Translations under genes and position numbers: made by a program
Source of the DNA: an uncultured Eubacteriales bacterium
GTDB lineage: Bacteria; Bacillota; Clostridia; Peptostreptococcales; Anaerovoracaceae
Length of the DNA stretch: 32,534 nt
NCBI GenBank assembly: GCA_949289445.1
Contig: CASEOD010000056.1
Location: 1 to 32,534 of the forward strand
Direction: 5' to 3'
Notes under the pieces: generated by a model
Databases searched by the model: none
Seen by the model: the letters and a program-made list of their open reading frames with translations, nothing else
What the model was told of the DNA's origin: nothing
Shown: positions 19,801 to 32,534 of the stretch, one piece after another
How positions within the stretch are numbered: position 1 is the stretch's first letter
Layout: the number at the start of each line of letters is the position of its first letter

Positions 19801-20275
19801 GGCACAGTTCCAGTCTCTGAAATCACCGTTTATCATCATGTTCACCATACCCCTTGCGTTTACGGGAGGACTTCTTGCGTTACTTGCAGCCGGTATGGAA
19901 CTGAGTGTCATCGCCATGATTGGAATGATTATGCTGACCGGTATTATCGTAAACAATGGAATTGTGCTGGTGGACTGCATCAATCAGCTGCGGGGCCGCG
20001 GTATTTCCAAGAAAGAAGCCATCGTGGAGGCGGGCATGATGCGTATGCGGCCGATTCTCATGACTTCACTGACCACTGTTCTGGGACTTGTGGTGATGGC
20101 TCTGGGAGATTCGGCAGGGACAGATATGATGCAGCCTGTAGCTCTGGTCTGCATCGGAGGACTGGTCTATGCGACTCTGCTGACCCTCTATATTGTGCCG
20201 GCTGTTTATGATATGATGAATAAAGAAGAGTACAGACAGATTTCGGAAGCGGATCTGGATATCAGTGATATTTAA
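16823..20275 (+). CDS. RND-family efflux transporter (AcrB/SwrC type) with a coiled-coil insertion
   Basis: A 1150-residue inner-membrane exporter with the duplicated RND layout: a first helix (residues ~10-30), a large extracytoplasmic loop, helices 2-6 (~450-620), a seventh (~645-665), a second loop, and helices 8-12 (~985-1130). The first loop carries a long heptad-rich, Glu/Gln/Ala-rich insertion (about 197-305) predicted to be a coiled coil. At the proton-relay position helix 4 has V-D523-N524-S instead of the AcrB Asp pair, and helix 10 has N1044-N1045 where AcrB has its lysine nearby. No membrane-fusion or outer-membrane partner is adjacent, as expected in a monoderm. The substrate is unknown; related Gram-positive proteins export surfactants, lipids or drugs. 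Confidence 0.92.
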   Translation: MAKLSVKKPFTVFVAVILILITGAVSYTKMTPDLFPDIDMPYVVVITPYPGATPEKVESTVTKPLEQSMATLTDIKNVQSVSNASYAMIILEFENSVNMDTVSSDILQKINLVEGSFDEAVGTSTILKINPNMIPVSVAAVGYEGKDRAELSAFVSDTLQNRLEGTAGVASITTSGILEEKINVVISQDKIDKINHEILSEIDEQLGEAQHELDSRKAEVAEGKSQVSEGKKKLEESRKELTAARQQLEEGKDFLSPEQYEQQLKALEDAESQLSENEEKLKETDAQLEEADSGLAAAQAQLDAQGDEARANADIGEKITADMISGILQAQNFSMPAGYIEENGNNFLVSVGDQITSEKQAKNLFLFDSGVESVGKIYLKDVADVFKSDNADELYAKINGEDGIVLSFSKQSNYATADVCANIQDKFQELSEEYEGLQFTSLMDQGDYIRLVVSSIISSLLWGALFAIIVLFLFLRGIKPTFITLCSIPFSLIFAILLMYFSGISINLISMSGLAVSVGMLVDNSVVVIENIVRLRRQGIPAPKAAVAGAKQVGGAITASTLTTVCVFVPIVFTDGLTRQLFTDMALTVTYTLFASLIIAMTLVPAMSSRLLVNTGESEGKLFLTLLEKYRKSITFVLKHKAPVLALAVVLLAGSVYLSLQKGFIFMPEMSSPQLQATLEMAEGSTLSETKEQADEAISRMQGIDGIETVGAMMSSGGMMMGESSSQTAVSFYIMLKEDSGIDSGQVAAQINRACADMEAEVTASGSSMSDFTTALGGSGVSVNVYSADLDDLQDTAHQVSDMLADVEGIDEVESGVQQADTEYHFKVKKTAAMEKGLTVAQVYGAIVEAMTYEDTATTVTWQGDEYDVVVSSELKEALTIEDIRNLTLTVDDGSGGEKKVKLNDVAELEEKETLQAIRRDNQSRYLTVNGSIRDGYNVTRVSEAARQAAEDLELPEGTVIEFSGENESIMDAMEDLVLMLLLGIVFVYLVMVAQFQSLKSPFIIMFTIPLAFTGGLLALLAAGMELSVIAMIGMIMLTGIIVNNGIVLVDCINQLRGRGISKKEAIVEAGMMRMRPILMTSLTTVLGLVVMALGDSAGTDMMQPVALVCIGGLVYATLLTLYIVPAVYDMMNKEEYRQISEADLDISDI

Positions 20276-20294
20276 TTTTCAGGAGGTAGAAAAA

Positions 20295-21734
20295 GTGAAA
20301 CTGTTTGACAACAAGGTCCAGGAAACCAAATACAAGGTTCTTCGTGAAGTGGCCGTACAGACATGGAAAGGAAACGATGTATTTGCGGAATTCAATGAAG
20401 TGGCAAGCAAGGTCATTCCAAAAGATGAACCGCCTCAGCGCTGCTGCATTTACAAGGATCGGGCAGTAGTGGCAGAACGTATGCGCCTTGCCATCGGCGG
20501 AAGCAGCAAGAATAAAAATGTGGTACAGGTCATTGATATCGCCTGTGATGAATGTCCTGAGGCAGGTTATGTGGTTACGGATCTCTGCAGAGGATGTCTG
20601 GCACACAGCTGTATCGACGCCTGCAAGCTTCATGCGATTTCTATCGATGAAAATCATCGGGCAAAGATAGATAAGGTAAAATGCGTAGACTGCGGGCGAT
20701 GTGCAAAAGCCTGCAGCTACAGCGCTATACATAATTTTGAAAGACCTTGTGAGAAGGCCTGCAAGGTGGGGGCCATCTCCATGGCTGACGGCGGTGAGGC
20801 AGCCATCGACTATGAAAAATGTATCAGCTGCGGTTCCTGTGTTTACCACTGCCCTTTTGGCGCAACAGTAGACGTATCCAGTATTGTGGATGTAATAAAA
20901 TGTCTGAAGGAAAGCACCAGAAAGGATTCCAACAATCCGACCGTGGCCATCGTGGCGCCGTCTATCGGCAGTCAGTTCCTTTATGCAAATCTGGGACAGG
21001 TTATTACAGGCATTCGCAAACTGGGCTTTGCAGAGGTGCTGGAAGTTGCGCTGGGAGCAGACATGGTGGCAGGCAAGGAAGCTGAAGAACTGGTAGAGAA
21101 GGGTTTTCTGACTTCATCCTGCTGTCCTGCCTTTGTAAAGTTTATTGAAACCAGATTTCCGGATATGGTGGAAAAGGTGTCCCACAATCTGTCTCCTATG
21201 GCAGAACTGGCCAGATTCCTGAAAGAAGGACATCCTGAATATACTATCGTGTTTATCGGACCGTGCATTGCGAAAAAGGCGGAGGTCAGAAAGCCTGAAA
21301 TCAGAAAGTACGTAGATTACGCCATTACTTTTGAAGAACTGCAGGCTCTCTTTGACAGCAGAAATATTATTCTCAGGGAGCAGGAAGAAACAAAGTGGAA
21401 TCAGGCTTCCTACTACGGAAGGATTTTTGCCCGTTCGGGAGGTCTTGCCACAGCAGTCAATCAGGCTCTGAAGGAACTGGATATCAAGGATTTTGAATTT
21501 AACCCGATTTCCTGCTCCGGTATTGAAGAGTGTAAGAAGGCTCTTGCCAGAGCCAATAAAGGCGTACTGCCTCATAACTTTATTGAAGGAATGGCATGTG
21601 TCGGCGGCTGTGTGGGAGGCAGCGGCAATATGATTCGCTATGAAGACTCTCCGGAGGAGATGGAAGAACATATTGAAGAGGCAGATGCAGTGGAGATTCT
21701 GCCTAATGTGAGAAAAACGATTAACATTCTGTAA
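20295..21734 (+). CDS. Monomeric [FeFe] hydrogenase, group B-like
   Basis: A 479-residue protein with an N-terminal iron-sulfur region followed by the H-cluster domain. Ferredoxin-type clusters are visible as CRGCLAHSCIDAC, CVDCGRCAKAC and CISCGSCVYHC, plus an extra CEKAC. The H-cluster motifs are TSSCCPAF (C276-C277), GPCIAKKAE (C324) and EGMACVGGC (C435, C439), so all expected ligands are present. The variant L1 and L2 motifs (TSSCCP-x-F and GPC instead of TSCCP-x-W and MPC) resemble group B enzymes rather than the classical fermentative group A. GTG 20295 is chosen because AGGAGG lies at 20281-20286. It follows the exporter by 19 bases and precedes the sigma-54 activator by 54 bases. Its role could be ferredoxin-linked hydrogen turnover or sensing. 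Confidence 0.9.
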   Translation: MKLFDNKVQETKYKVLREVAVQTWKGNDVFAEFNEVASKVIPKDEPPQRCCIYKDRAVVAERMRLAIGGSSKNKNVVQVIDIACDECPEAGYVVTDLCRGCLAHSCIDACKLHAISIDENHRAKIDKVKCVDCGRCAKACSYSAIHNFERPCEKACKVGAISMADGGEAAIDYEKCISCGSCVYHCPFGATVDVSSIVDVIKCLKESTRKDSNNPTVAIVAPSIGSQFLYANLGQVITGIRKLGFAEVLEVALGADMVAGKEAEELVEKGFLTSSCCPAFVKFIETRFPDMVEKVSHNLSPMAELARFLKEGHPEYTIVFIGPCIAKKAEVRKPEIRKYVDYAITFEELQALFDSRNIILREQEETKWNQASYYGRIFARSGGLATAVNQALKELDIKDFEFNPISCSGIEECKKALARANKGVLPHNFIEGMACVGGCVGGSGNMIRYEDSPEEMEEHIEEADAVEILPNVRKTINIL

Positions 21735-21788: not shown

Positions 21789-23648
21789 ATGGAGAATTAT
21801 TTGGCCAGAGCAGTGGAACTTTTAATGGATAATATGGATCAGGGGATTGTCTTTGTAGATGAGGAAGGCCGGATTCAGATCTGCAACCGTGTTGCCAAGG
21901 AAAGTACCGGTATTGTCGTCAACGCCCATGCCAGTCATGAAAGCGGAAGAATTCGGGAAGGTGATATAGTTATCATTGCAGATAACAATCTGGGGGAAGA
22001 TGACGGCGGCCTCGGCAGGGAAGAACTGTCATTTCTGAATCTGACCAATGATCAGATTCAGAAGGGTGACATGCTTATCGCTGTAGGCGTTTACAAAAAC
22101 AGAAAGATAGAACCGAAATACAAATATCTGCGGGAGCATTCCCTCAATATTCCCATGAAGCTGGATGTAAACTATTACGGATTTCATATCAGAGCATCCA
22201 TCGATACAGAAAAGAAGGAAACGCTGATAGAAGTCAACGACCACACCTATCGCCAGGGATATTTTTCGTCTGTGGGGAATATTGTGGTGATTGACGGCAG
22301 TACAGGAGATATCAAATTCTTTCAGGCGAAGGGATACAGCGTCAGAAATGAAGATGCGGGAAATCTGCTGCGCGGAGAACCTTACATGGCGAAGACTACA
22401 GAAAATGTAGATATCGATGTAACCGGTCTGAAATTTCTGGATCTGTTTGATCAATCCGCTCTGTCAGAACAGCTTTTTGCTGTCCTCAACGGACAGAGAG
22501 AAAAAGTCAATAATCAGCTTTATGAAATCAATAAAAGACCCTTCATCTGCAGTATTATACCGTGGAATGAAAGAGAGGAACGGGATACGGAGCAAAAACG
22601 GACAAGAGGTGTATTTCTGGTAATGCACAGTGCGGAGCAGCTGGACAGGCTGCTGGAAGACAGAAATGAAATTATCCGGCAGATAGAGGAAAATACAACG
22701 GTTCCAGACAGACGGCCGGAATTTCCGGAAGATGAATTTTCCGGTTTTATCGGAAAAAGCGGAAAGACACTGGAAGTCAAATATCTGGCGCATAAGGCTT
22801 CGAAAAATAAGTTTAACGTGCTGCTGACAGGAGAAAGCGGAACAGGAAAATCCCAGCTTGCAAGAGAAATTCACCGGGCAGGGAATCCCGATTCACCGTT
22901 TATAGAGGTAAACTGTAATGCGATTGCACCTTCCCTTTTTGAAAGTGAACTGTTCGGATATGTAGGTGGTGCATTTACCGGAGCTAAGAGTGAAGGAAAA
23001 ATCGGATTTTTTGAAGCAGCTGACAAAGGGACGATCTTTCTCGATGAAATCGGTGAAATTCCTCTGGACATTCAGGTGAAACTTCTGCATGTTCTCCAGA
23101 ACAAGATGATCTACAGGGTAGGCTCTTCCAGACCTATCAAGGTTAATGTCCGGGTGATTGCAGCCACCAACAAGAATCTGGAGGAAGAAGTGGCGCAGGG
23201 ACGTTTCAGGCAGGATCTGTTTTATCGTATCAATGTTTTTCCCATTGAGATTCCGCCCCTGAGGGAAAGAAAAGCGGATCTCTATCTGCTGATGAATCGG
23301 ATTCTGAAGAGAACCTGTGAGGAATACGATATGGAGATCAAGCAGCTTTCCGGTCAGGCTCTGCAGGAACTGCTGTCTTATAACTGGCCCGGCAATGTCA
23401 GAGAACTGGAAAACGTTATTGAGCGGGCAGTAACCCTCTGTGAATCCAATATCATATATCCGGAGCATCTGCGTCTGGGAAGAGGAGATATTCCGGTAAC
23501 CATGCGTGAGATGCTGGCAAGGGAGGAAGCCAGAATTCTGGAGATGACTCTGATGAAGCATAACGGAGATAAGCGGAAGGCGATGGAAGAACTGGATATG
23601 TCAAAGACAGTCTTCTATGATCATCTGAAAAAATATCATATTAAATAA
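21789..23648 (+). CDS. Sigma-54-dependent transcriptional activator with an N-terminal sensor region
   Basis: A 619-residue bacterial enhancer-binding protein. The N-terminal ~310 residues hold a PAS-like start (ELLMDNMDQGIVFVDEEGRIQICN) and a further PAS-like stretch near 155-290. No response-regulator receiver domain is present. The AAA+ domain has a Walker A at 348-355 (GESGTGKS), the sigma-54 contact loop GAFTGA at 394-399, a Walker B in GTIFLDEIGE and an R-finger region (FRQDLFYRINVFPI). A Fis-type helix-turn-helix ends the protein (GDKRKAMEELDMSKTVFYDH). It is probably cotranscribed with the hydrogenase. Four -24/-12 promoters between 26.1 and 31.2 kb are likely targets (inference). Confidence 0.95.
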   Translation: MENYLARAVELLMDNMDQGIVFVDEEGRIQICNRVAKESTGIVVNAHASHESGRIREGDIVIIADNNLGEDDGGLGREELSFLNLTNDQIQKGDMLIAVGVYKNRKIEPKYKYLREHSLNIPMKLDVNYYGFHIRASIDTEKKETLIEVNDHTYRQGYFSSVGNIVVIDGSTGDIKFFQAKGYSVRNEDAGNLLRGEPYMAKTTENVDIDVTGLKFLDLFDQSALSEQLFAVLNGQREKVNNQLYEINKRPFICSIIPWNEREERDTEQKRTRGVFLVMHSAEQLDRLLEDRNEIIRQIEENTTVPDRRPEFPEDEFSGFIGKSGKTLEVKYLAHKASKNKFNVLLTGESGTGKSQLAREIHRAGNPDSPFIEVNCNAIAPSLFESELFGYVGGAFTGAKSEGKIGFFEAADKGTIFLDEIGEIPLDIQVKLLHVLQNKMIYRVGSSRPIKVNVRVIAATNKNLEEEVAQGRFRQDLFYRINVFPIEIPPLRERKADLYLLMNRILKRTCEEYDMEIKQLSGQALQELLSYNWPGNVRELENVIERAVTLCESNIIYPEHLRLGRGDIPVTMREMLAREEARILEMTLMKHNGDKRKAMEELDMSKTVFYDHLKKYHIK

Positions 23649-23804: not shown

Positions 23805-24923
23805 TCAGTCTGTATATTTTCTCGGAGGTCTTTCTGTCAGGCGGGCAATAATATCGTTTTTGTTGGTGCCTGCAAGGGCGGCAGCTTCCTCTATATTCAT
23901 GGAGCCGTCTTTACCGTCACCGTAGATGATGGCTTCTGTACCGCAGTGAACATCCGGAATGTGAGTAACGTCTGCTATGCACTGATCCATACAGATAACC
24001 CCTACGATAGGCGCTTTTTTACCGTTGATGACAACATATCCCTTATCCCGCAGGTATCTCGGATATCCGTCTGCGTAGCCGAAAGGCAGTGTTGCAAGGA
24101 GGCTGTCTTCGGGAGCTTTCCAAAGATAATCGTAGCTGACACCTTCTCCTTTTTTTACGCGGTGAAGCTGTGAAACTGCCGTTCGGAAAGTCAGCACCTG
24201 TTCTACATCCAGAGAGCGGATATGGAAGCCTTTCATTCCGTAAATCAGCGCGCCTGGCCGAACCATATTCAGCCAGTACTGCGGATAATCCACTGTGGCA
24301 ATGCTGTCTGCAATATGTTTATAGCGAAAACTGCATCCCCGGCTTTCCAGAACGCCGATAAAATCAGTGAACAGTTTAAACTGTTTATCGTTCTCTTCTT
24401 CATTGACCAGCGCAAGATGACTGAAAATACCTTCTACCTCCACATTCTCCGATTCAAACATACCGCAGATTTCCCGGGCAAATTCTTCTGAAGGCATACA
24501 GCCCAGACGGTGAAATCCGGTATCTACTTTTACGTGAACTTTGGCTCTGGTATTACGTTCTGCAGCCAGCCGATCCAGAATCTGCACCTGCTCCAGAGAG
24601 AAAACAGTCTGGGTGATTTTGTTTTCAACTACCATCGGCAGCAGTCTGTCAGGAGTATGGCCAAGAATAAAGAGAGGATAATCGGGATAGGCTTCCCTCA
24701 GTGACAGGGCTTCCGTCAGCGTTGCCACAGCAAGATAGGCAACGCCGCTTTTCATCAGCGCAGGCGCGATGCCGACAGCGCCGTGACCGTATCCGTTGGC
24801 CTTAACTACTGCCATGACAGCAGTTTTGGGACCTACCAGATCCGAAATCAGCTTCATATTATGTTCCATTTTTTTCAGGTCCACAATGATTTGAGTATCG
24901 CGGACATCTTTGAAAGTTACCAT
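23805..24923 (-). CDS. alr: Alanine racemase
   Basis: A 372-residue PLP enzyme interconverting L- and D-alanine. The PLP lysine is K41 in AVVKANGYGHG, and the C-terminal domain carries the catalytic tyrosine in GVSYDYLWKAPEDSLLATLPFGYADGYPR. VGVICMDQCIADVT is also family-typical. The ATG overlaps the stop of the M20 amidohydrolase (ATGGTAA), so the two are one coupled transcript. Placement behind a hydrolase and a probable sigma-54 promoter suggests a catabolic racemase, although a sole biosynthetic alr cannot be excluded from this window. Confidence 0.95.
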   Translation of the reverse strand: MVTFKDVRDTQIIVDLKKMEHNMKLISDLVGPKTAVMAVVKANGYGHGAVGIAPALMKSGVAYLAVATLTEALSLREAYPDYPLFILGHTPDRLLPMVVENKITQTVFSLEQVQILDRLAAERNTRAKVHVKVDTGFHRLGCMPSEEFAREICGMFESENVEVEGIFSHLALVNEEENDKQFKLFTDFIGVLESRGCSFRYKHIADSIATVDYPQYWLNMVRPGALIYGMKGFHIRSLDVEQVLTFRTAVSQLHRVKKGEGVSYDYLWKAPEDSLLATLPFGYADGYPRYLRDKGYVVINGKKAPIVGVICMDQCIADVTHIPDVHCGTEAIIYGDGKDGSMNIEEAAALAGTNKNDIIARLTERPPRKYTD

Positions 24924-26122
24924 GTTTTACTTTCCTCCTCCAATATTTTCAAAACTGCAGCGGCTTCCGTCAGGATGCCTGTGCGGATACATTCCTCGTC
25001 AGGATTGAATCTGTCGCTGTGAATCGGATATGCTTCTGTTTCTCCCGGGCGACGGGTTCCGATATTGTAATAAAGACCTCTGGTACCGTGACAGAAATAG
25101 GCGAAATCGTCTGCTCCCAGACTCGGTTTTGTCAGTGTATGCACATGGTTTTTGCCCAGAACTTCCTCTGCTGACTCCTTGACCCAGCTGAACAGAGTAT
25201 CGTCATTTTCCAGAGAAGGATAACTGTCGATAAAGTCCACCCTGCATTGAGCTCCATAGGCTTTTGCAATAGAAGTACAGAGAGATTCGATCTGCTCCTT
25301 GATGAAACTTCTCTGAGAGAGTTTCAGAGTGCGGATGATGCCGGAAAAAACAGTTTCTCCTGACACAATGTTGTTTTTTGTACCGCTGTTGAACCGGCCG
25401 ACTGTGATCAGGCATGCGTCCGTGGGGTCCAGTCTGCGGGTGATAATGGACTGGATACTGCTGACCATGGTACATGCAGGCAGCAGAGAGTCGATTCCGT
25501 CAGTAGGATGAGCACCGTGACAGGACTTTCCGGTAACAGTCACACAGAATTCGCAGGAAGCGGCGTTCATCGCTCCGGGAGTCAGCAGAATGCTTCCCGC
25601 ATCCACAGCGGATTCCACATGCAGACCCAGAACGCTTTTAATCTCAGGATGATTAAGGCAGCCTTCTTCGATCATCTGTCTGGCTCCGCCGACGGTTTCT
25701 TCGGAGGGCTGAAACAATAATCGCACAGATCCGGATAAATCCTGTTTTATCTCATTGAGAATCTGAGCAGTTCCCAACAGAATCGCGGTGTGGATATCAT
25801 GGCCGCAGCCGTGCATGACTCCGTCTGTCTTTGAACGGAAAGGAACATCTGTCTGCTCCTGCAGAGGCAATGCATCGATATCAGCTCTGACTGCCACTCC
25901 TTTATCTCTGTTTTTTCCGTAAATTACGGCAGAGACTCCATGGCCTGCAACATCTTTTTCAAAGGGAATTCCCAGCTCCCGCAGCCTGCTTTGAATCAGA
26001 AGGGCAGTTTTCTCTTCCTGTTCGCTGAGCTCAGGATACATGTGGATCTGTCTGCGCAGGGATACCATATCGTCAAAAATCTCGTTCGTCCGAACTTTGA
26101 TTCTCTCTAAAAGCTCTTTCAT
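24917..26122 (-). CDS. M20-family amidohydrolase (N-acyl-amino-acid/hippurate hydrolase type)
   Basis: A 401-residue zinc peptidase-fold enzyme that cleaves acyl or aminoacyl groups from amino acids. Visible motifs are AVRADIDALPLQEQTDVPF, the metal-binding GCGHDIHTA, PSEET-x-GGA and the late metal ligands in KPSLGADDFAYF. The dimerisation domain lies in between (about 185-300). The frame continues upstream to 26161, but ATG 26122 follows TTGGAGG at the right distance. The 24-base leader from the predicted sigma-54 start would end here. Substrate specificity cannot be read from the sequence. The overlap with alr suggests an alanine-containing or D-amino-acid product. Confidence 0.9.
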   Translation of the reverse strand: MKELLERIKVRTNEIFDDMVSLRRQIHMYPELSEQEEKTALLIQSRLRELGIPFEKDVAGHGVSAVIYGKNRDKGVAVRADIDALPLQEQTDVPFRSKTDGVMHGCGHDIHTAILLGTAQILNEIKQDLSGSVRLLFQPSEETVGGARQMIEEGCLNHPEIKSVLGLHVESAVDAGSILLTPGAMNAASCEFCVTVTGKSCHGAHPTDGIDSLLPACTMVSSIQSIITRRLDPTDACLITVGRFNSGTKNNIVSGETVFSGIIRTLKLSQRSFIKEQIESLCTSIAKAYGAQCRVDFIDSYPSLENDDTLFSWVKESAEEVLGKNHVHTLTKPSLGADDFAYFCHGTRGLYYNIGTRRPGETEAYPIHSDRFNPDEECIRTGILTEAAAVLKILEEESKTW

Positions 26123-26155: not shown

Positions 26156-26173
26156 ATGCAAAATCCGTGCCTA
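26156..26173 (-). promoter_or_regulatory. Sigma-54 promoter (P1) of the amidohydrolase-alr operon
   Basis: The minus strand reads TAGGCACGGATTTTGCAT. GG (26171-26170) and GC (26159-26158) are spaced by exactly 10 bases, and GGCACG-N4-TTGCA matches the consensus at all key positions except the T before GG. The predicted start is near 26146. A TATAAT on the same strand (26155-26150) has only a poor -35 (TTTCAT), so a sigma-A alternative is weak. Confidence 0.75.
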
Positions 26174-26197
26174 TGAAAATAAAAGTCATAAAAAATT

Positions 26198-26215
26198 TTG
26201 GCATGAAAATTGCTT
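26198..26215 (+). promoter_or_regulatory. Sigma-54 promoter (P2) of the M19 dipeptidase
   Basis: TTGGCATGAAAATTGCTT has GG at 26200-26201 and GC at 26212-26213 with 10 bases between, giving TGGCATG-N4-TTGCT. The predicted start is near 26225, 33 bases before the ATG. A sigma-A reading (TTGGCA, 18-base gap, TATAAT at 26222-26227) also exists and must be kept in mind. Confidence 0.7.
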
Positions 26216-26257
26216 TAATGTTATAATAGAAATAATCGTGAAATTGAGGAGGTAATT

Positions 26258-27208
26258 ATGAGAATTGTCGATATGCATTGTGATACTCTGATTGAGGGGT
26301 GGAGAAAACCTGAAATCAGCTTTGTGGACGGTGACAGATCTGTCAATCTGAAGCTTTTGAAGGAACATGACTCTCTGGCACAGTTTTTTGCCATGTATCT
26401 TTCCAGATCAGAGATGAAAACCATGGATCCTTATGACATTCTGAAAGGGATTTACGGCTATTACAGCAGGGTAATGGATGAAAACAGGGATATGATTCGT
26501 CCGGTATTTTCTGCTTCTGATATTGAGAAAAATCGTGAGGAAGGGATTCTTTCGTCTTTTCTGACTGTTGAGGACGGTGTTTTTCTGGACGGAAAAATAG
26601 AAAGAGTACAGGAAGTTTATGACATGGGTGTCAGACTGATTACGCTGCTTTGGAACTTTGAGAATTCTGTGGGTTTCCCTTGCAGCGATGATCCCAAGGA
26701 ACATATGAAAGGACTGAAGCCTTTCGGTATTGAGGTTGTGGAGAAGATGAATGAACTTGGCATGATCATTGATGTATCTCATATGTCAGAAGGTGGTTTT
26801 TATGATGTGGCAAAATACAGTAAGAAACCGTTTGTTGCATCTCACTCCTGTGCCAGAGCACTGTGCAACCACAGGAGAAATCTGACTGACGATCAGCTGA
26901 AAACTCTGGGAAATGCAGGTGGCATCGTGGGAGTAAACTTTGAGTGCTCTTTCCTGAAAGAGGGATCCGACAGAGCAACGTATGATCAGATTATTGAGCA
27001 TCTTTTATACTTTAAGGATAAGGCAGGCATGGATGCTGTGGGCTTTGGTTCGGATTTTGACGGTATTGATGACAACGGAGAACTGGTTAACTACGGCGGT
27101 TTCACTACGCTGCTTGAATGCATGGAAAAACATTTTACCGATGACGAAATCGACAAGATCTGTAACGGAAACGCACTGAGAGTAATCAGAGACGTTGTCG
27201 GAAAATAA
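26258..27208 (+). CDS. M19-family (renal-type) zinc dipeptidase
   Basis: A 316-residue metallodipeptidase. M19 enzymes cleave dipeptides and often accept a D-residue at the C-terminal position. The H7-x-D9 pair is in VDMHCDT, the bridging glutamate in LTVEDGVF, and two histidine regions are IDVSHMSEGG and VASHSCARAL; the late aspartate is in VGFGSDFDGID. No signal peptide is seen, so it is cytoplasmic. GAGGAGG precedes the ATG. It is transcribed divergently from the amidohydrolase-alr operon, with back-to-back sigma-54-type promoters in a 135-base intergenic region. Confidence 0.93.
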   Translation: MRIVDMHCDTLIEGWRKPEISFVDGDRSVNLKLLKEHDSLAQFFAMYLSRSEMKTMDPYDILKGIYGYYSRVMDENRDMIRPVFSASDIEKNREEGILSSFLTVEDGVFLDGKIERVQEVYDMGVRLITLLWNFENSVGFPCSDDPKEHMKGLKPFGIEVVEKMNELGMIIDVSHMSEGGFYDVAKYSKKPFVASHSCARALCNHRRNLTDDQLKTLGNAGGIVGVNFECSFLKEGSDRATYDQIIEHLLYFKDKAGMDAVGFGSDFDGIDDNGELVNYGGFTTLLECMEKHFTDDEIDKICNGNALRVIRDVVGK

Positions 27209-27260
27209 GGGGGACACCCTGAGAAACTCTTTGGTTTAAGCACTTTTAAGAATAAAAAGA

Positions 27261-27288
27261 TTGACTTTTCTGAAATAGATGCTATAGT
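27261..27288 (+). promoter_or_regulatory. Sigma-A promoter of the small-paralogue array
   Basis: TTGACT at 27261-27266 and TATAGT at 27283-27288 are separated by 16 bases, with the start expected near 27295. It gives the three-gene array its own promoter, separate from the sigma-54 promoters around it. Confidence 0.65.
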
Positions 27289-27336
27289 TAAGTTACAAAG
27301 TAGCGATATTTTGATTTGGGAAAAGAGGTGCTTTTT

Positions 27337-27654
27337 ATGATTAGCGCAGAACCAAAGAAAATTATGGAAGCTTTTGACGATCATGCTTTTTTCAAACCCA
27401 GCGCCAAACTGGAAATGGATGCTTTTCTGGAAAAGGAAAAGCAGCGGCAGAGAGATGAAGGTGTGATCGGCGAAGATGCGGATAAACTGGACTTGGGTGC
27501 CATGAAGGGATTTGCGGTAAAGCGGTGGCAGAAGATTTTCTACGCTGTCTGCGGCGTTGTTATCGTGACCGTGATCGTTTCTGCGGTAATGATTTCCGTC
27601 ATGGTTGCACAGGGCAGGGATCTGCCTTCATTTTTAGAATTTTTGGATATGTAG
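27337..27654 (+). CDS. Small single-pass membrane protein, copy 1 of a tandem paralogue family (unknown function)
   Basis: I do not recognise this family. The 105 residues divide into a charged cytoplasmic N-domain (1-66) with DHAFFKPSAKLEMDAFLEKE followed by RQ-x-x-EGVIG, a transmembrane helix (about 69-92, FYAVCGVVIVTVIVSAVMISVMV), and a short outer tail GRDLPSFLEFLDM. Copies 2 and 3 share the N-domain, and copy 3 shares the tail pattern (GKELPAFLGFLE). ATG 27337 follows AAGAGGTG. The Lys/Glu-rich segment is predicted to be helical. Confidence 0.8.
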   Translation: MISAEPKKIMEAFDDHAFFKPSAKLEMDAFLEKEKQRQRDEGVIGEDADKLDLGAMKGFAVKRWQKIFYAVCGVVIVTVIVSAVMISVMVAQGRDLPSFLEFLDM

Positions 27655-27663
27655 CATGAATAG

Positions 27664-27699
27664 GAAACGCAGGTCATGAAAGAAAATGATCTGCGTTTC
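27664..27699 (+). other. Hairpin between paralogue copies 1 and 2
   Basis: GAAACGCAG at 27664-27672 pairs with CTGCGTTTC at 27691-27699, and inner TCAT/ATGA extend the stem around the loop GAAAGAAA. The tail TCTCTGC is too poor in T for a classical terminator. It may attenuate or stabilise the transcript and so set the ratio of copy 1 to copies 2 and 3. Confidence 0.55.
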
Positions 27700-27742
27700 T
27701 CTGCAATAGAGACAGGTTTGAATAGGGAAAGAGGTGTTTCTG

Positions 27743-27937
27743 ATGACAGAAAAGGATCCTAATAAAAAGGTAATGGAATTTTTTGAGGAGCATGCCTTTT
27801 TTAAGCCGACGGCGAAGAAAGAAATGAATGCTTATATGGAGCGGGAGAGAAAGCGGCAGGTAGAAGAGGGTATGATTGATGAGGAATCTGAAAAGATCAA
27901 TCTACAGACTGCGATAGAAAGAGAGGATGATAAATAA
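27743..27937 (+). CDS. Small soluble paralogue, copy 2 (lacks the membrane segment; unknown function)
   Basis: The 64 residues correspond only to the N-terminal domain of its neighbours: KDPNKKVMEFFEEHAFFKPT, then AK-x-EMNAYMERERKRQ and EGMIDEESEKINL. It stops after EREDDK, where copies 1 and 3 enter their transmembrane helix. Only 36 bases separate the stop from copy 3, and no remnant of a helix is encoded there, so this looks like a stable short form rather than a recent frameshift. ATG 27743 has AGAGGTG upstream. High charge suggests a soluble helical protein. Confidence 0.72.
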   Translation: MTEKDPNKKVMEFFEEHAFFKPTAKKEMNAYMERERKRQVEEGMIDEESEKINLQTAIEREDDK

Positions 27938-27973
27938 AGCTTAAATGTTGTTTTTGGGAAGGGATGTGATTTT

Positions 27974-28327
27974 ATGAAAGGGAAAGATCCGAATAAAGAG
28001 CTGATACAATATGTTGAAGATACCGGGTTCTATAAGGCTTCCGCAAGGCTGGAAATGGATGCATATCTGGAAAAGGAGAGGGAAAGACAGAAAGAAACCG
28101 GAACCATTGGAACGGATAATGTGAAGATTGATGTGAGGGAAGCAGCTCGTAACTATGATATAAAGCCATGGCAGAAGTTTTTTGTGTTTTTCGTGGCAGT
28201 GATTCTGCTTTCTCTGATTGCTGCAGCCGTTGCCGGATGCATTATCATGGGGCAGGGGAAAGAACTGCCGGCATTTCTGGGGTTTCTGGAGCATCCAATT
28301 GATTATTTTCTTGACTGGCATGAATAA
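27974..28327 (+). CDS. Small single-pass membrane protein, copy 3 of the tandem family (unknown function)
   Basis: The 117 residues repeat the family plan: KDPNKELIQYVEDTGFYKAS, then AR-x-EMDAYLEKERERQ and a KIDVREAA segment, a transmembrane helix (about 75-97) and the outer tail GKELPAFLGFLEHPIDYFLDWHE. W-Q-K-x-F just before the helix is shared with copy 1. The outer tail is longer than in copy 1. GGGAAGGGATG lies upstream of the start. The gene ends just before a convergent hypothetical gene. Confidence 0.8.
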   Translation: MKGKDPNKELIQYVEDTGFYKASARLEMDAYLEKERERQKETGTIGTDNVKIDVREAARNYDIKPWQKFFVFFVAVILLSLIAAAVAGCIIMGQGKELPAFLGFLEHPIDYFLDWHE

Positions 28328-28349
28328 AAGATATTAAACCAAATGTAAC

Positions 28350-28381
28350 AAGAGGCATCGCAAGCTAGCGCGATGCCTCTT
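28350..28381 (-). terminator. Hairpin overlapping the 3' end of the minus-strand gene
   Basis: AAGAGGCATCGC and GCGATGCCTCTT form a perfect 12-bp stem with the loop AAGCTAGC. The stop codon of the minus-strand gene lies in it. The minus-strand tail (TTGTTACATTT) is a modest terminator tail; the plus-strand tail is poorer. It separates two convergent genes. Confidence 0.6.
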
Positions 28382-28832
28382 CCAGCATTCCGGATCTTAT
28401 ATTTTCAAACTGTTTTGAAGTAATGGAAACCGGGTAGTATATTTCCTCTGAGCCGTCTTTCAGAAGGAAGACAATCCGTGCACCGATGAGACTGTCCAGG
28501 TTAGGATTCAGCGTGTTTCCCTCTCCGTTCTGAAGGCAAATATCTTTAAGTTCTTCAATCTGAAATTTTGGCTGTTTCCCTCGGGATGCATCCAGATCCG
28601 GCATGATGACTGTACCATTCTTGATATCGATACCGGCACTGAGAACGGATACAAGGATCATGATACTGAAAAGAAATAACACTGCAAAAACAATGATTGG
28701 AAGCAGCCATAACCTTGATCCTCCTCCAAGTCTCATGGCCAGAGACAGAGAGAATAACACAATGTTAATAAGGGTGAACAGAGCGGCTGTGACGGCACCA
28801 CGCTTGCTGATTACAGAAAAATGTCGGTTCAT
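28365..28832 (-). CDS. Hypothetical membrane protein with two transmembrane helices
   Basis: I do not recognise it. The 155 residues contain two adjacent hydrophobic helices (about 14-34 and 41-65), then a soluble domain of about 85 residues with IDIKNGTVIMPDL, an EELKDICLQNGEG segment and IGARIVFLLKDGSEEIYYP. The strand-rich soluble part resembles PH-like domains of bacterial membrane proteins in general shape, but this is only an impression. AAGGAG lies upstream of the ATG. It is divergent from the small gene at 28909. Confidence 0.7.
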   Translation of the reverse strand: MNRHFSVISKRGAVTAALFTLINIVLFSLSLAMRLGGGSRLWLLPIIVFAVLFLFSIMILVSVLSAGIDIKNGTVIMPDLDASRGKQPKFQIEELKDICLQNGEGNTLNPNLDSLIGARIVFLLKDGSEEIYYPVSITSKQFENIRSGMLEEASR

Positions 28833-28846
28833 TATATGATATCTCC

Positions 28847-28873
28847 TTGCTTTTTAATATGAATTCGTATAAT
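28847..28873 (+). promoter_or_regulatory. Possible promoter of the small membrane protein gene
   Basis: A consensus TATAAT at 28868-28873 is preceded by TTGCTT at 28847-28852, but the 15-base gap is short. The -10 alone is convincing; the -35 is doubtful. Confidence 0.35.
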
Positions 28874-28908
28874 ATATAAGCTGAATTTATAAGTGAAAGG
28901 ATGACATT

Positions 28909-29097
28909 ATGACTGTCAAAATTTTTATCGGCATTGCTATTATCTTAGTTTCATTCGTATACATCATGAAAAATCATGATAAATCGCTGATGGATTCTCT
29001 CATGGGAAAGAGAAAGGCCGCTATGGAAGAAATGCAGAAGCTGGCCGAACAGGAATCCTCTGATACCTCTAAAACAGACAATCCTAATCAAGATTAA
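28909..29097 (+). CDS. Small hypothetical single-pass membrane protein
   Basis: The 62 residues start with a transmembrane helix (about 4-20, KIFIGIAIILVSFVYIM) followed by a charged, probably helical cytoplasmic tail rich in Lys, Glu, Met and Asp. I recognise no family. GAAAGGATGACATT with AAAGGA gives a plausible ribosome binding site. The 3' end overlaps the convergent vanX-like gene by 14 bases. Confidence 0.6.
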   Translation: MTVKIFIGIAIILVSFVYIMKNHDKSLMDSLMGKRKAAMEEMQKLAEQESSDTSKTDNPNQD

Positions 29098-29653
29098 CAT
29101 CCAGATATCTTACCGGCAGGGTATTTTTATCATAGAAGTGCCACCATTCACCTTCGTAAGGTGTGAAGCCGGCATCTGTCATAATTTGTCTCAGAAATTC
29201 CGCGTTTTCTCTAGCCTCGCCTGTTGTCAGTGGACAATCAAGGCGGGCTTTTTCTGTAAAATCATCAAATTGGCTTGGCATGGGGATCTGACTGCCGTCA
29301 GCATTCACCAGAGTAACATCCACACATTGTCCGTTCATATGAGAGTTTTTGAATTCAGTCATGTGCTCCATATCAGGGGGATATGCGACAAAGTTATTGT
29401 CGGGAAGTAGATCCCAGAATCTCTGCTGAGCACTGACAGGACGAAATGCATCCCATACCTTTATTTTCAGACCGCGTTTTGCTGCGGCATTTTTTGCCTC
29501 AATCAGCTGTCTGGCGGTATGGCTGTCAATATAACATTCAGCGGATGTATAAACCCTGCTGCCTGTGAAATTGTCATCTGTGGCGTAGCGCAGATCGATG
29601 ATAAATTCCGGATCCAAATCCAGAAGTCTTACTAAATTCTGATATTGTTTCAT
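29084..29653 (-). CDS. VanX-type D-alanyl-D-alanine dipeptidase (M15D)
   Basis: A 189-residue zinc dipeptidase. All residues known to matter in VanX are present in register: R71 in DAFRP, H105 and D112 in SHMNGQCVD, and E169 with H172 in EWWHF. VanX hydrolyses free D-Ala-D-Ala. In resistance clusters it acts with VanH and a D-Ala-D-Lac ligase, but neither is here. This copy lies 16 bases after a membrane-protein gene, behind a predicted sigma-54 promoter, so a catabolic or recycling role is more likely than glycopeptide resistance. No signal peptide is visible. AAGGAG precedes the ATG. Confidence 0.92.
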   Translation of the reverse strand: MKQYQNLVRLLDLDPEFIIDLRYATDDNFTGSRVYTSAECYIDSHTARQLIEAKNAAAKRGLKIKVWDAFRPVSAQQRFWDLLPDNNFVAYPPDMEHMTEFKNSHMNGQCVDVTLVNADGSQIPMPSQFDDFTEKARLDCPLTTGEARENAEFLRQIMTDAGFTPYEGEWWHFYDKNTLPVRYLDVNLD

Positions 29654-29669
29654 TTGTTTTTCTCCTTAG

Positions 29670-30275
29670 TTAGTGGCTCTGAAATAATACAATGACAACT
29701 GTCAAAGGTGTTGCACAGCTCATAAAGGTGACAACTGCCAGAAATCCGTAGGCAATGGCGACAAACTTCCATTTGTTGCTGTAACCCGGCAGAACCTTAA
29801 AAGTTTTATATACGGTAACCTTCTCATCAGCTTTCATTTTCTTGTAAAATTTATCAATCTGTAAAGCCTGAATAATGCCGTCTCTGAAAAACGGAAGGAA
29901 AAAATCCGGTTTATCAGAGACATTTTTTTTCTCATCTGTATAAAATTTCACACCCATAGTATCGAATACAGCTGTTTTTACTTGTGTTAAGTCAAGTGTT
30001 CTTGATTTACGCAGCAGCCTGTTATAATAGGTGAGAGAGTTCTCATTGTAAACGCTGTAGCAGAACTTGTGACCAAAGAACAGAGTTATCAGGATTACAA
30101 ACAGCAAGGCGTACAACAGCAGAGTTAAGGGAATGTTGGTTGCTTCGTAATATTTGTCGATTTTAAAAATGATTATCTCCATCATAATGAGGAATCTGAG
30201 TAATATATAAATAAATAGGGTCAAAATAAAGGCCTGTTTTGCCAGATTGGTATAGTGATACTGAATTTTATTCAT
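29670..30275 (-). CDS. Hypothetical membrane protein upstream of the VanX-type gene
   Basis: The 201 residues have hydrophobic helices at about 14-35, 50-68 and 172-196. A soluble domain lies in between (about 72-165: NENSLTYYNRLLRKSRTLDL, with PDFFLPFF, later KTFKVLPGYSNKWKF). The arrangement recalls YcxB/PH-like membrane proteins, but I cannot assign it. AAAGGAG is upstream of the ATG. It is the first gene of a two-gene operon with the D-Ala-D-Ala dipeptidase and is preceded by a -24/-12 promoter. It could assist uptake or sensing; that is inference from context. Confidence 0.68.
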   Translation of the reverse strand: MNKIQYHYTNLAKQAFILTLFIYILLRFLIMMEIIIFKIDKYYEATNIPLTLLLYALLFVILITLFFGHKFCYSVYNENSLTYYNRLLRKSRTLDLTQVKTAVFDTMGVKFYTDEKKNVSDKPDFFLPFFRDGIIQALQIDKFYKKMKADEKVTVYKTFKVLPGYSNKWKFVAIAYGFLAVVTFMSCATPLTVVIVLFQSH

Positions 30276-30316
30276 GTAAGTTCTCCTTTATATGTAATAA
30301 ACATTACTATATACAA

Positions 30317-30334
30317 TAGCAAAAAATGTGCCTT
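30317..30334 (-). promoter_or_regulatory. Sigma-54 promoter (P4) of the membrane protein - VanX operon
   Basis: The minus strand reads AAAGGCACATTTTTTGCT (from 30334). GG (30332-30331) and GC (30320-30319) are 10 bases apart, giving GGCACA-N4-TTGCT. The predicted start is near 30307, 32 bases before ATG 30275. A weaker sigma-A alternative is TTGTAA-N17-TATTGT on the same strand. Confidence 0.68.
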
Positions 30335-30419
30335 TTTACAAGCAGGATTTAATAGCATATTCTGAAATATATTCCTAAAATCCGGAAATTGAGTTCTAAA
30401 AATAAAACAAAATAAATAA

Positions 30420-30444
30420 AAAAACGGCCATCTTGGCCGTTTTT
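30420..30444. terminator. Bidirectional terminator after the secreted-protein gene
   Basis: AAAAACGGCCA and TGGCCGTTTTT form a compact stem with a three-base loop and A/T tracts on both sides. It terminates the minus-strand gene at 30453-31010. The remaining bases between 30335 and 30420 are AT-rich, and I see no gene there. Confidence 0.85.
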
Positions 30445-30452
30445 AAAAGATA

Positions 30453-31010
30453 TTAACTTAAAGCTTTAAAATATGCAAATGCATATGGAGAATATACCCA
30501 AGCATCTACACTATCAGAATCTAACGGATCATTGCAGTAATTTGCCCAAGCAACTTTTCCTTGGCTTTGATTAGTATAAACTACTTTGGTCTTATAAGGC
30601 ACATAAAGATTCCCCCAAACACCAACTGTAACTTTTTTTCTGTTAGAAAGATTTACGGCACTGGATGGCAATGATGACAACTTTGTTTTGGATTGCAGTA
30701 CATAGCCTTTTAGATCTCCAAATTCAACCTCATAACAGTAAGTACCCACAGATTTTTTATAGGCCATATAGGTATTCTTTCCTAGAATTGCAGTCATTGA
30801 AGTACCACTTGAACTTGTGAAAGTCCAAGGCGTATTACAGCCGGAATCCTTGTAAACTGTAACTGCGCCGTTAAGAGTATAAGGATTACCATCAAGGGTG
30901 ACGTACTGCGTAGCACCATAACTCTGACTATTTGAAAATACAGTAATCATGGAGAGTAATAAAAAAATACTCAGGGAAATTGCAGTCAATCTCTTTAGTT
31001 GTTGTTTCAT
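30453..31010 (-). CDS. Small secreted protein with a signal peptide, possibly SH3b-like
   Basis: The 185 residues start with a clear signal peptide (KQQLKRLTAISLSIFLLLSM, cleavage likely near SYGA/T). The mature ~150 residues are rich in Ser, Tyr, Val and Thr and have three cysteines. Segments such as GAVTVYKDSGC and GDLKGYVLQSKTKL resemble bacterial SH3-like repeats that bind cell walls, but the match is weak. ATG 31010 is chosen because GAAAGGAG lies just upstream; the frame itself runs 55 codons further. The gene is clearly more AT-rich than the operons at 2-24 kb, which may point to recent acquisition. Confidence 0.72.
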   Translation of the reverse strand: MKQQLKRLTAISLSIFLLLSMITVFSNSQSYGATQYVTLDGNPYTLNGAVTVYKDSGCNTPWTFTSSSGTSMTAILGKNTYMAYKKSVGTYCYEVEFGDLKGYVLQSKTKLSSLPSSAVNLSNRKKVTVGVWGNLYVPYKTKVVYTNQSQGKVAWANYCNDPLDSDSVDAWVYSPYAFAYFKALS

Positions 31011-31050
31011 AGTTGTCTCCTTTCTATTAAAATAAACAAACAATGTGGTT

Positions 31051-31078
31051 ATTACAAATTGTATAAACGATTTGTAAT
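31051..31078. repeat. Inverted repeat: operator or sigma-54 enhancer site candidate
   Basis: ATTACAAAT and ATTTGTAAT are perfect 9-base arms with a 10-base centre. The site is 41-68 bases upstream of the secreted-protein ATG and 107-134 bases upstream of the -24 element of P3. The second distance is typical for binding sites of sigma-54 activators. The 312-base gap 31011-31322 otherwise holds P3, a leader peptide frame and AT-rich sequence. Confidence 0.5.
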
Positions 31079-31184
31079 AGCTTTTAGTAATTTTAGTATA
31101 ACAGATAATAAGGTTATATTGGGTCGTAGTTAGAAACGTTTTGTATGAACTTTTTGAAAATTCGGTCAAACACATAATACGAAG

Positions 31185-31202
31185 TTGGCATAAATTTTGC
31201 TT
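31185..31202 (+). promoter_or_regulatory. Sigma-54 promoter (P3) of the spmA/spmB-like genes
   Basis: TTGGCATAAATTTTGCTT has GG at 31187-31188 and GC at 31199-31200, with 10 bases between them, giving TGGCATA-N4-TTGCT. It is nearly identical to P2 over 18 bases. The predicted start is near 31212, leaving a leader of about 111 bases. A sigma-A reading (TTGGCA, 16-base gap, TAAAAT) is possible but poorer. Confidence 0.75.
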
Positions 31203-31242
31203 TAGTTAAAATTGTCATAATAAACTGGCGGAAAGGAGGTTT

Positions 31243-31272
31243 ATGTATCTCACTAAAACAAGAGATACCTAA
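31243..31272 (+). other. Possible leader peptide and hairpin in the spmA-like mRNA leader
   Basis: AAAGGAGG at 31232-31239 precedes ATG 31243, which opens a nine-codon frame, M-Y-L-T-K-T-R-D-T, ending in TAA. The spacing of three bases is short. Within it GTATCTC (31245-31251) can pair with GAGATAC (31262-31268). It lies about 30 bases after the predicted sigma-54 start and 50 bases before the spmA-like ATG. Confidence 0.4.
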
Positions 31273-31322
31273 AAACTTACGCAATCATAATATGCGAAAT
31301 TTTATCTAGGAGGAAAGAAATT

Positions 31323-32039
31323 ATGATGAACTATATTTGGGTGGCACTGGCTGTCATCGCAGTAATTGCCGGCGGCGTTACTGGAACTATGGATGCAGTT
31401 CTGCAGAATATTTTCGATTTTGCGCAGTCTGCTGTAGATATTGCTTTTAGCTTGATTGGTATCATGGCATTCTTCTGCGGTTTGATGAGAGTAATGCAGG
31501 AGGCAGGTCTCTGCGAAAAGCTTGGTAAAGCTATCTCTCCTGTTATGCGACTTCTGTTCCCTGGAGTACCGGCAGATCACCCTGCTAACTCCGCAATGGC
31601 TCTGTACTTTGCCGCAAACATTCTGGGTATTGGTAATGCAGCAACTCCGTTCGGCCTGAAGGCTATGCAGGAGCTGCAGACTCTGAATAAGACAAAGAAC
31701 ATTGCAACTGATGCACAGGTTATGCTGCTGGCTGTTGCAACTACTTCCATCACTCTGATTCCGGTAACTGCTATCGGTTTGCGTGCAGGTATTCAGTCTG
31801 CTGGAGCTGCTGAAATCATCGCACCGGTTATCATTGCAACTACGATTTCTACTGTAACAGGTATCTTCTTTACCATCGTTTTCGGCAAGATGAAGAGATT
31901 CAAGTATGACTACATCATCGAAAAAGAAATTGCAGCAGGCACCATTGAGATCAACGAAGATTATATCGGAAATGATCCGATCGTTCTGCCTGAAAACTAT
32001 AAATCCAAAAAAGTTGCAGAAGAAAAAGTTTCATGGTAA
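31323..32039 (+). CDS. SpmA-like membrane protein (nucleoside-recognition/Gate domain)
   Basis: A 238-residue protein with about five transmembrane segments. The Gate-type core is visible in LIGIMAFFCGLMRVMQEAGL, in HPANSAMALYFAANILGIGN followed by AATPFGLKAMQEL, and in LLAVATTSITLIPVTAIGLR, all typical of SpmA. In Bacillus SpmA and SpmB act in spore core dehydration, but Gate-domain pairs also occur as presumed transporters. It is longer than Bacillus SpmA because of a charged C-terminal tail. AGGAGG precedes the start. It lies behind a sigma-54 promoter, not an obvious sporulation promoter, and is followed by the spmB-like partner after 12 bases. Confidence 0.85.
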   Translation: MMNYIWVALAVIAVIAGGVTGTMDAVLQNIFDFAQSAVDIAFSLIGIMAFFCGLMRVMQEAGLCEKLGKAISPVMRLLFPGVPADHPANSAMALYFAANILGIGNAATPFGLKAMQELQTLNKTKNIATDAQVMLLAVATTSITLIPVTAIGLRAGIQSAGAAEIIAPVIIATTISTVTGIFFTIVFGKMKRFKYDYIIEKEIAAGTIEINEDYIGNDPIVLPENYKSKKVAEEKVSW

Positions 32040-32051
32040 GGAGGTAAGAAC

Positions 32052-32534
32052 ATGACAGCAGTATTAGAAGCAATTTCCGTATGGGCGATTCCCGTTGTAG
32101 TAGCAGCCGTATGTTTTTACGCAATTTGTAAAAAGGTTCCTGTATACTCTGTGTTTACAGAAGGAGCGAAAGAAGGTTTTTCTACGGCCATTATGATTAT
32201 TCCGTATCTAGTTGCCATGCTTTGTGCTATCGGTATGTTCAGAGCATCCGGTGCCATGGACTGGCTCTGTGACCTTCTGAATCCTATCACCAGCTTAATC
32301 GGTCTTCCTGCAGAGGTTCTGCCGATGGGTATTATGAGATCCTTTTCTGGCGGTGGAGCTGAATCTTTGATGGTAGATTTATTGAAAGAATATGGCACTC
32401 AGTCTCAGATCGGCCGAATCGCATCTGTAGCACTGGGTTCCACAGAGACAACTTTCTACATTGTAGCAGTTTACTATGGTTCAATCGGCGTTACCAACGC
32501 AAGACAGTCCATCGCAGCAGGTCTGCTGGGCGAC
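32052..32534 (+). CDS. SpmB-like membrane protein (3' end outside the window)
   Basis: The 161 visible codons encode about four hydrophobic segments with the SpmB hallmarks FTEGAKEGFSTAIMIIPYLVAM, the P-x-EVLPMGIMRSFSGGGAESLM stretch, and GSTETTFYIVAVYYGSIG. It is the partner of the SpmA-like protein and has a strong TAAGGAGG ribosome binding site. The frame is open to the last base, and Bacillus SpmB is only slightly longer, so little is missing. Confidence 0.88.
   Translation, partial: MTAVLEAISVWAIPVVVAAVCFYAICKKVPVYSVFTEGAKEGFSTAIMIIPYLVAMLCAIGMFRASGAMDWLCDLLNPITSLIGLPAEVLPMGIMRSFSGGGAESLMVDLLKEYGTQSQIGRIASVALGSTETTFYIVAVYYGSIGVTNARQSIAAGLLGD

Follow-up and report, generated by a model that had tools for sequence, protein, structure and literature searches.

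The window analysed here is the whole of contig C56, a stretch of 32,534 bases from an uncultured gut bacterium of the Eubacteriales (Anaerovoracaceae) whose assembly comprises 2.14 Mb in 162 contigs and is 84.8% complete; positions refer to this window unless a locus or contig label is given. It carries the gene for a sigma-54 activator (act), or enhancer-binding protein (EBP), together with peptidase, racemase and membrane protein genes headed by four predicted sigma-54 promoters, P1 to P4. The activator (21789-23648, plus strand, 619 amino acids) scores 216.7 bits against PF00158, and both the reading frame and its intact GAFTGA motif are present, as claimed in an earlier reading of the letters alone (hereafter the original prediction). 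P1 (26158-26171, minus strand) precedes genes for an M20 amidohydrolase/peptidase (24917-26122, minus; PF01546; TIGR01891, 331.2 bits against a cut-off of 153.75; start codon ATG at 26122 picked via homology) and an alanine racemase, alr (23805-24923, minus; TIGR00492, 312.2 bits, cut-off 168). P2 (26200-26213, plus) precedes an M19 dipeptidase gene (26258-27208, plus; PF01244, 279.6 bits). P4 (30319-30332, minus) heads genes for an EbsA-like membrane protein of 201 amino acids (29670-30275, minus; PF17255, 22.2 bits, under the cut-off of 25.9) and a VanX/DdpX-type D-Ala-D-Ala dipeptidase, vanX (29084-29653, minus), which matches its Pfam family (PF01427, 119.6 bits). P3 (31187-31200, plus) heads the Gate-domain membrane protein genes gateA (31323-32039, plus; PF07670, 53.2 bits) and gateB (32052-32534, plus; PF07670, 46.8 bits), the latter truncated by the contig end. 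The M20-alr, M19 and membrane protein-VanX-type targets had all been named in the original prediction; the pair that it called spmAB-like is scored here as Gate-domain. A further member of the conserved cluster, mem155 (28365-28832, minus), encodes a small membrane protein without a Pfam family.

All four promoter sites are intergenic and contain an exact GGCA-N6-TTGC at the places originally proposed, and P2 and P3, described as nearly identical over 18 bases, agree at 15 of them. The sites had also been said to lie a short distance from a start codon. Measured from the start of the 17-mer, this holds for P1 (50 nt), P2 (59 nt) and P4 (58 nt) but not for P3, whose leader is not short because the 17-mer begins 137 nt before the start codon. 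Pattern scans alone are less telling. TGGCAC-N5-TTGC with up to two mismatches was found 37 times in the window as compared to 28.0 expected, and 7 of 100 shuffles reached 37, so the loose pattern does not exceed chance. With the stricter GGCAY-N5-TTGCW there are 50 matches across the genome versus 6 for the reversed pattern, an imperfect control in which dinucleotides are altered; five of the 50 fall in this contig, namely P1 to P4 and one at 28794 within an open reading frame (ORF). It is conservation that decides whether the sites are real.

Conservation was assessed in 14 non-redundant related loci (L061-L069, L096, L097, L100, L101 and L103), among them Aminicella lysinilytica (L067, Anaerovoracaceae) and Emergencia sp. 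1XD21-10 (L066); one further locus, L102, contains merely part of the activator. The genes act, alr, M20, M19, mem155, vanX, EbsA-like, gateA and gateB occur together, wholly or in part, in these 14 loci, with rearrangements and losses. An exact GGCA-N6-TTGC was counted when it lay up to 220 nt upstream of a gene, with the source locus included and L061 counted twice for EbsA-like and gateA. On this basis, the motif precedes 49 of 53 orthologues of the promoter-bearing genes (M20 10/11, M19 13/14, EbsA-like 12/14, gateA 14/14) and none of the 26 internal-gene controls (vanX 0/11, gateB 0/15). Other cluster genes carry it occasionally (alr 2/13, mem155 3/13, act 1/11): alr bears the promoter in L062 and L064, where no M20 gene was found; mem155 has its own sigma-54 promoter in L066, L097 and L101, where it has moved beside gateA; and in L100 the motif stands before act, with M19 directly behind. 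In L103, M20 lies behind mem155 and the EbsA-like promoter is a one-base variant, and in L067 the EbsA-like gene comes after M19. The comparison of intergenic regions that had been suggested as a check thus comes out in favor of the sites, and P1 to P4 are, to near certainty on this comparative evidence, sigma-54 promoters that serve a conserved set of local genes.

Two features of promoter layout were noted in passing. P1 and P2 form a back-to-back pair whose 14-mers are separated by 28 bp here and by 4 to about 43 bp in relatives, leaving little or no room between them both here and in L061 (around 9919-9950; 4 bp), where simultaneous binding of polymerase at P1 and P2 would hardly be possible. 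The gateA leader (31201-31322 here) spans 62-182 nt across loci, and many relatives share within it a GCAAT(T/C)AT and an element of the GCG/CGC type ahead of the ribosome site; a search for an RNA element in this leader found no consensus base pairs across relatives, and Rfam gave no match anywhere in the window.

The four sites could also be ordinary sigma-A promoters whose sequence happens to look like a sigma-54 site, a caveat that the original prediction attached to P2 and P3. Such a reading does exist at P2, which fits TTGGCA-N18-TATAAT, and P1, P3 and P4 each have five of six matches to TATAAT. Among orthologues, however, the -10 match varies from three to six of six and its spacing shifts, whereas the sigma-54 motif is kept exactly. 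Of 13 M19 regions, two (the source locus and L096) have a perfect TATAAT 15-19 bp past the hexamer at the TTGGCA position, as compared to 13 of 14 with the sigma-54 motif. The caveat is weakened by this lack of conservation at a fixed spacing, and with an enhancer-type site close by as well, we regard a sigma-A origin as highly improbable.

That site consists of two 16-bp palindromes (GTCCgAAAATtcGGAC) with starts 21 bp apart, the second degenerate, at 30372-30408 between P4 and P3, and it was absent from the original prediction. It begins ∼40 bp away from the -24 element of P4, and its far end is ∼780 bp from P3; an ORF without a Pfam family but with an apparent signal sequence (30453-31175) sits between it and P3, and in relatives that lack the inserted gene the gap is 346-511 nt. 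Across loci the pair has the consensus GTCCGAAAATTCGGAC, starts 21 bp apart, and lies between EbsA-like and gateA; in Aminicella lysinilytica it sits before gateA. A matrix trained on nine loci (Aminicella included) ranks the pair first in all 12 loci with an EbsA-like/gateA pair (scores 15.8-38.9), including the four held out of training: the source locus (21.3), L061 (29.3), L064 (25.9) and L068 (15.8). In the source contig the next best match scores 5.0, and the highest score reached in 100 Markov copies of that contig is 13.9. We propose 30372-30408 as a candidate enhancer for P4 and P3.

The link from these palindromes to the local activator comes from distant relatives of the protein. 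An alignment with 10 relatives shows GAFTGA in the source protein, RAFTGA in L103 and a conserved C-terminal stretch. The N-terminal region has no Pfam family, the whole protein stays below the cut-off of the PrdR model NF041552 (351.9 of 795 bits), and a structure predicted for the sensor region, with a mean pLDDT of 70.8, finds no PDB counterpart at E ≤ 0.001 and only weak, partial matches to PAS; this model was not relied on. A profile of the first ∼300 residues, run against 391 genomes of the class, has matches at E ≤ 1e-20 in 14: the source genome, its congener G072 and 12 genomes outside the genus, which supplied 13 stretches with activators 36-45% identical. A lysA homologue is present in all 13, with an exact sigma-54 motif directly before it in 11; L219 and L222 have a one-base motif variant before dapF. 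The lysA products pass TIGR01048 in four of four tested and dapF passes TIGR00652; LdcA matches Pfam S66 but stays below the PRK11253 cut-off. When each stretch was searched with the matrix from the near loci and compared to ten of its own shuffles, a pair beside the activator or a target promoter exceeded all ten in eight of 13 (L218, L221, L223, L224, L225, L226, L229 and L230), with a spacing of 19-20 bp. It is mainly because one activator type keeps one site type over this distance that we assign the palindromes to this activator.

Further targets were sought in 13 genomes of the genus by scanning for the pair with up to two mismatches. Of the 27 places found, seven belong to the cluster, one in each of seven genomes, and another lies before dapF-lysA in G072, adjoining that genome's activator. 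Fifteen of the remaining 19 were inspected, the other four being in G120, G123, G124 and G126. Six of those inspected are intergenic, and four of the six have a sigma-54 motif 68-87 bp off that is aimed at a gene (L141 and L142 lack one). Three of the four genes are orthologues of an S11 D-Ala-D-Ala carboxypeptidase (G129, G121 and G128), and the fourth, in G121, encodes an amidohydrolase (PF07969; PRK09061, 255.6 of 340 bits) that we take to be D-aminoacylase-like. Close orthologues of the S11 carboxypeptidase (at least 52%) occur in six genomes, including the source genome at C47:4681-6351, and in all six the gene is preceded by the pair (20.9-33.3) and a sigma-54 motif; the four remoter S11 genes examined have no pair. 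Among 16 source-genome stretches around activators and sigma-54 sites, only the one on C47 has a pair scoring above 12.0. The regulon had originally been pictured as local, a view that needs widening given a further sigma-54 promoter and pair before this distant carboxypeptidase gene of the same genome. Together, these data make it likely that P3, P4 and the distant carboxypeptidase promoter form a regulon of the local activator.

Several observations weigh against a single regulon that takes in all four promoters. The activator has no helix-turn-helix (HTH) domain reported in the Pfam scan, conserved as its C-terminal stretch is, and it is one of 17 full sigma-54 activator domains in the 2.1-Mb source assembly, so that 16 others could act. 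(The 4.7-Mb congener G129 has 54 sigma-54 activator protein matches.) The genus scan is barely enriched overall, its 27 places, spread over 12 of 13 genomes, comparing with 21 for a reversed control, and nine of the 15 inspected places lie within ORFs. A second, paralogous gateA/EbsA-like copy in L061 lacks the pair. Among the far stretches, L219, L220 and L227 have no pair above shuffles at the expected place and L222 and L228 have their best pair elsewhere (5/13), and the partners other than lysA are uneven (ldcA in 5; gateAB, M20, dppA and dapF in 3 each; alr in 1). At P1/P2, a search of 14 loci between -500 and +150 relative to the M19 start found neither tandem palindromes, whatever their sequence, nor a half-site in common; single half-sites exceed the 95% null value (11.3) only in L065 (12.1) and L101 (11.7), far within neighbouring sequence. 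Finally, searches by domain and by protein found no rpoN in the source assembly.

The absence of rpoN is, taken literally, the outcome named at the outset as fatal to the original prediction. We read it instead as a probable assembly gap, because the assembly is only 84.8% complete, the gene gap is missing as well and 17 full activator domains are present. All 12 other congeners have rpoN; gap adjoins it in 11, and in the twelfth rpoN lies 169 bases from a contig end.

The lack of palindromes at P1/P2 bears on which protein drives them, and their activator is assigned by inference only. The original prediction had the nearby activator driving all four promoters. This is supported in part: P4 and P3 have a pair of a type also found with distant activator relatives, whereas P1 and P2 have none, and for them it stays plausible. 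Instead, the local protein, acting at the palindromes, might control the distant carboxypeptidase as well as EbsA-like/vanX and gateAB while another activator serves the M20-alr/M19 pair. Besides the missing site and the wealth of activator domains, this division of labor gains from a paralogous gateAB-ldcA locus that lacks the palindromes although it has sigma-54 promoters and a different activator close by. On the other side, act stays beside alr, M20 and M19 in most relatives, and in L100, as described, M19 directly follows an act gene that itself has the motif. We consider two activators unlikely. The paralogous locus (L202, C28:36000-47000) is a second sigma-54-type locus of the source genome, in which gateA-gateB-ldcA-Asp/Glu-type racemase lie opposite an EbsA-like gene; it is near an M20 gene and has no palindrome pair.

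Two neighbouring features complete the description of the window. Directly 5' of the activator lies a monomeric [FeFe] hydrogenase gene (20265-21734; TIGR04105, 540.9 bits, cut-off 450), a homologue of which is found ∼5 kb away in G129. Between 27337 and 28324, three similar small proteins are encoded in tandem, two with a membrane segment, that share the motif AKxEM(D/N)A(F/Y)(L/M)E; the two tested had no Pfam match.

The enzymes that recur in these loci belong to families acting on D-Ala-D-Ala, D-amino-acid dipeptides, the L,D bond of the tetrapeptide, diaminopimelate and D-Ala, which together is the chemistry of peptidoglycan stem peptides. Wall-peptide catabolism is a likely function judging from these protein families, and we put at about 70% the overall reading that P1 to P4 are promoters of a regulon in which an activator turns on the catabolism of stem peptides from peptidoglycan and of D-amino-acid dipeptides. 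In the proposed mechanism, the activator would sense a wall-derived ligand via its N-terminal region, bind the palindromes and then open sigma-54 polymerase complexes. The S11 carboxypeptidase would liberate D-Ala; GateAB, perhaps with the EbsA-like protein, would carry peptide or diaminopimelate across the membrane; the VanX-type, M19 and M20 enzymes would cleave peptides; and Alr would convert D-Ala to L-Ala. In relatives, LdcA, DapF and LysA would lead tetrapeptide and diaminopimelate to lysine, and the resulting amino acids would be fermented. This succession of steps, the ligand, and what GateAB and the EbsA-like protein act on are all inferred.

The same enzymes might instead tune the cell's own peptidoglycan, either to remodel the wall or to respond to wall-active antibiotics. 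A VanX-type enzyme and Alr are indeed both present, the latter also scoring 295.9 bits against the VanT-G catalytic model, whose cut-off is 460, and the available portion of Francke et al. 2011 (PMC3162934) argues that sigma-54 controls the cell exterior. The vanX product, however, falls clearly short of the VanX model NF033115 (79.9 of 320 bits), no D-Ala-D-Lac ligase was found among the 10 contig proteins scanned (the rest of the genome was not searched for one), and LysA, DapF, LdcA and DppA in relatives point to breakdown. Remodelling is accordingly an improbable explanation, and feeding on wall peptides is the reading we retain.

Like E. coli YjiG/YjiH, whose genes lie beside the dipeptidase gene iadA, GateA and GateB are two neighbouring Gate-domain membrane proteins, and GateB matches PRK10519 weakly, below the cut-off (41.2 of 111 bits). 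Unlike YjiG/YjiH, they are linked to lysA, ldcA and alr and to sigma-54 control. The vanX product differs from E. coli DdpX in staying below the cut-off of the DdpX-type model PRK10178 (141.2 of 176 bits).

A precedent for sigma-54 and an EBP governing D-Ala-D-Ala dipeptidase and uptake genes is E. coli ddpXABCDF, whose dipeptidase and transporter are under NtrC/RpoN control according to the accessible part of PMC8743547. There, a single operon with an ABC transporter answers to the general nitrogen regulator NtrC, whereas here several operons with a different activator include Gate-domain proteins, Alr, M19 and M20. The available text of Nie et al. 2019 (PMC6615313) describes 39 EBP groups in clostridial sigma-54 regulons, of which XcyR (malY-pepT) and YpdR are labelled peptide degradation and DioR has argE in its target list. 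Those regulons resemble this one in their local activator, promoter consensus and role in amino-acid or peptide breakdown. Compared by operon content, however, no target operon listed in that text has alr, M19, vanX, lysA, dapF, ldcA or a Gate pair. Elsewhere, the diaminopimelate decarboxylase gene HD73_1649 of Bacillus thuringiensis is listed as sigL-linked, with a poor promoter match, filed under lysine biosynthesis and without a known activator (part of PMC4428206), and D-Ala-D-Ala dipeptidase appears among sigma-54-linked groups, but in gamma-Proteobacteria (part of PMC12316311). No description of the present regulon was found in the literature on sigma-54 regulons, as far as its accessible portions go.

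Gut bacteria are surrounded by abundant peptidoglycan. We tentatively suggest, at slightly less than even odds, that this activator family is a dedicated wall-eating switch spread thinly across Clostridia: an undescribed sensor for stem peptides or diaminopimelate that would couple their release to uptake by a Gate pair, a new kind of transporter, and so to fermentable lysine and alanine. For the Gate-domain membrane pairs, about which little is known, this also yields a substrate hypothesis that can be tested. If true, clostridial sigma-54 regulons would extend from free amino acids to wall peptides, and a readable activator site would mark genes for stem-peptide and diaminopimelate breakdown, making diet predictable in uncultured amino-acid fermenters.

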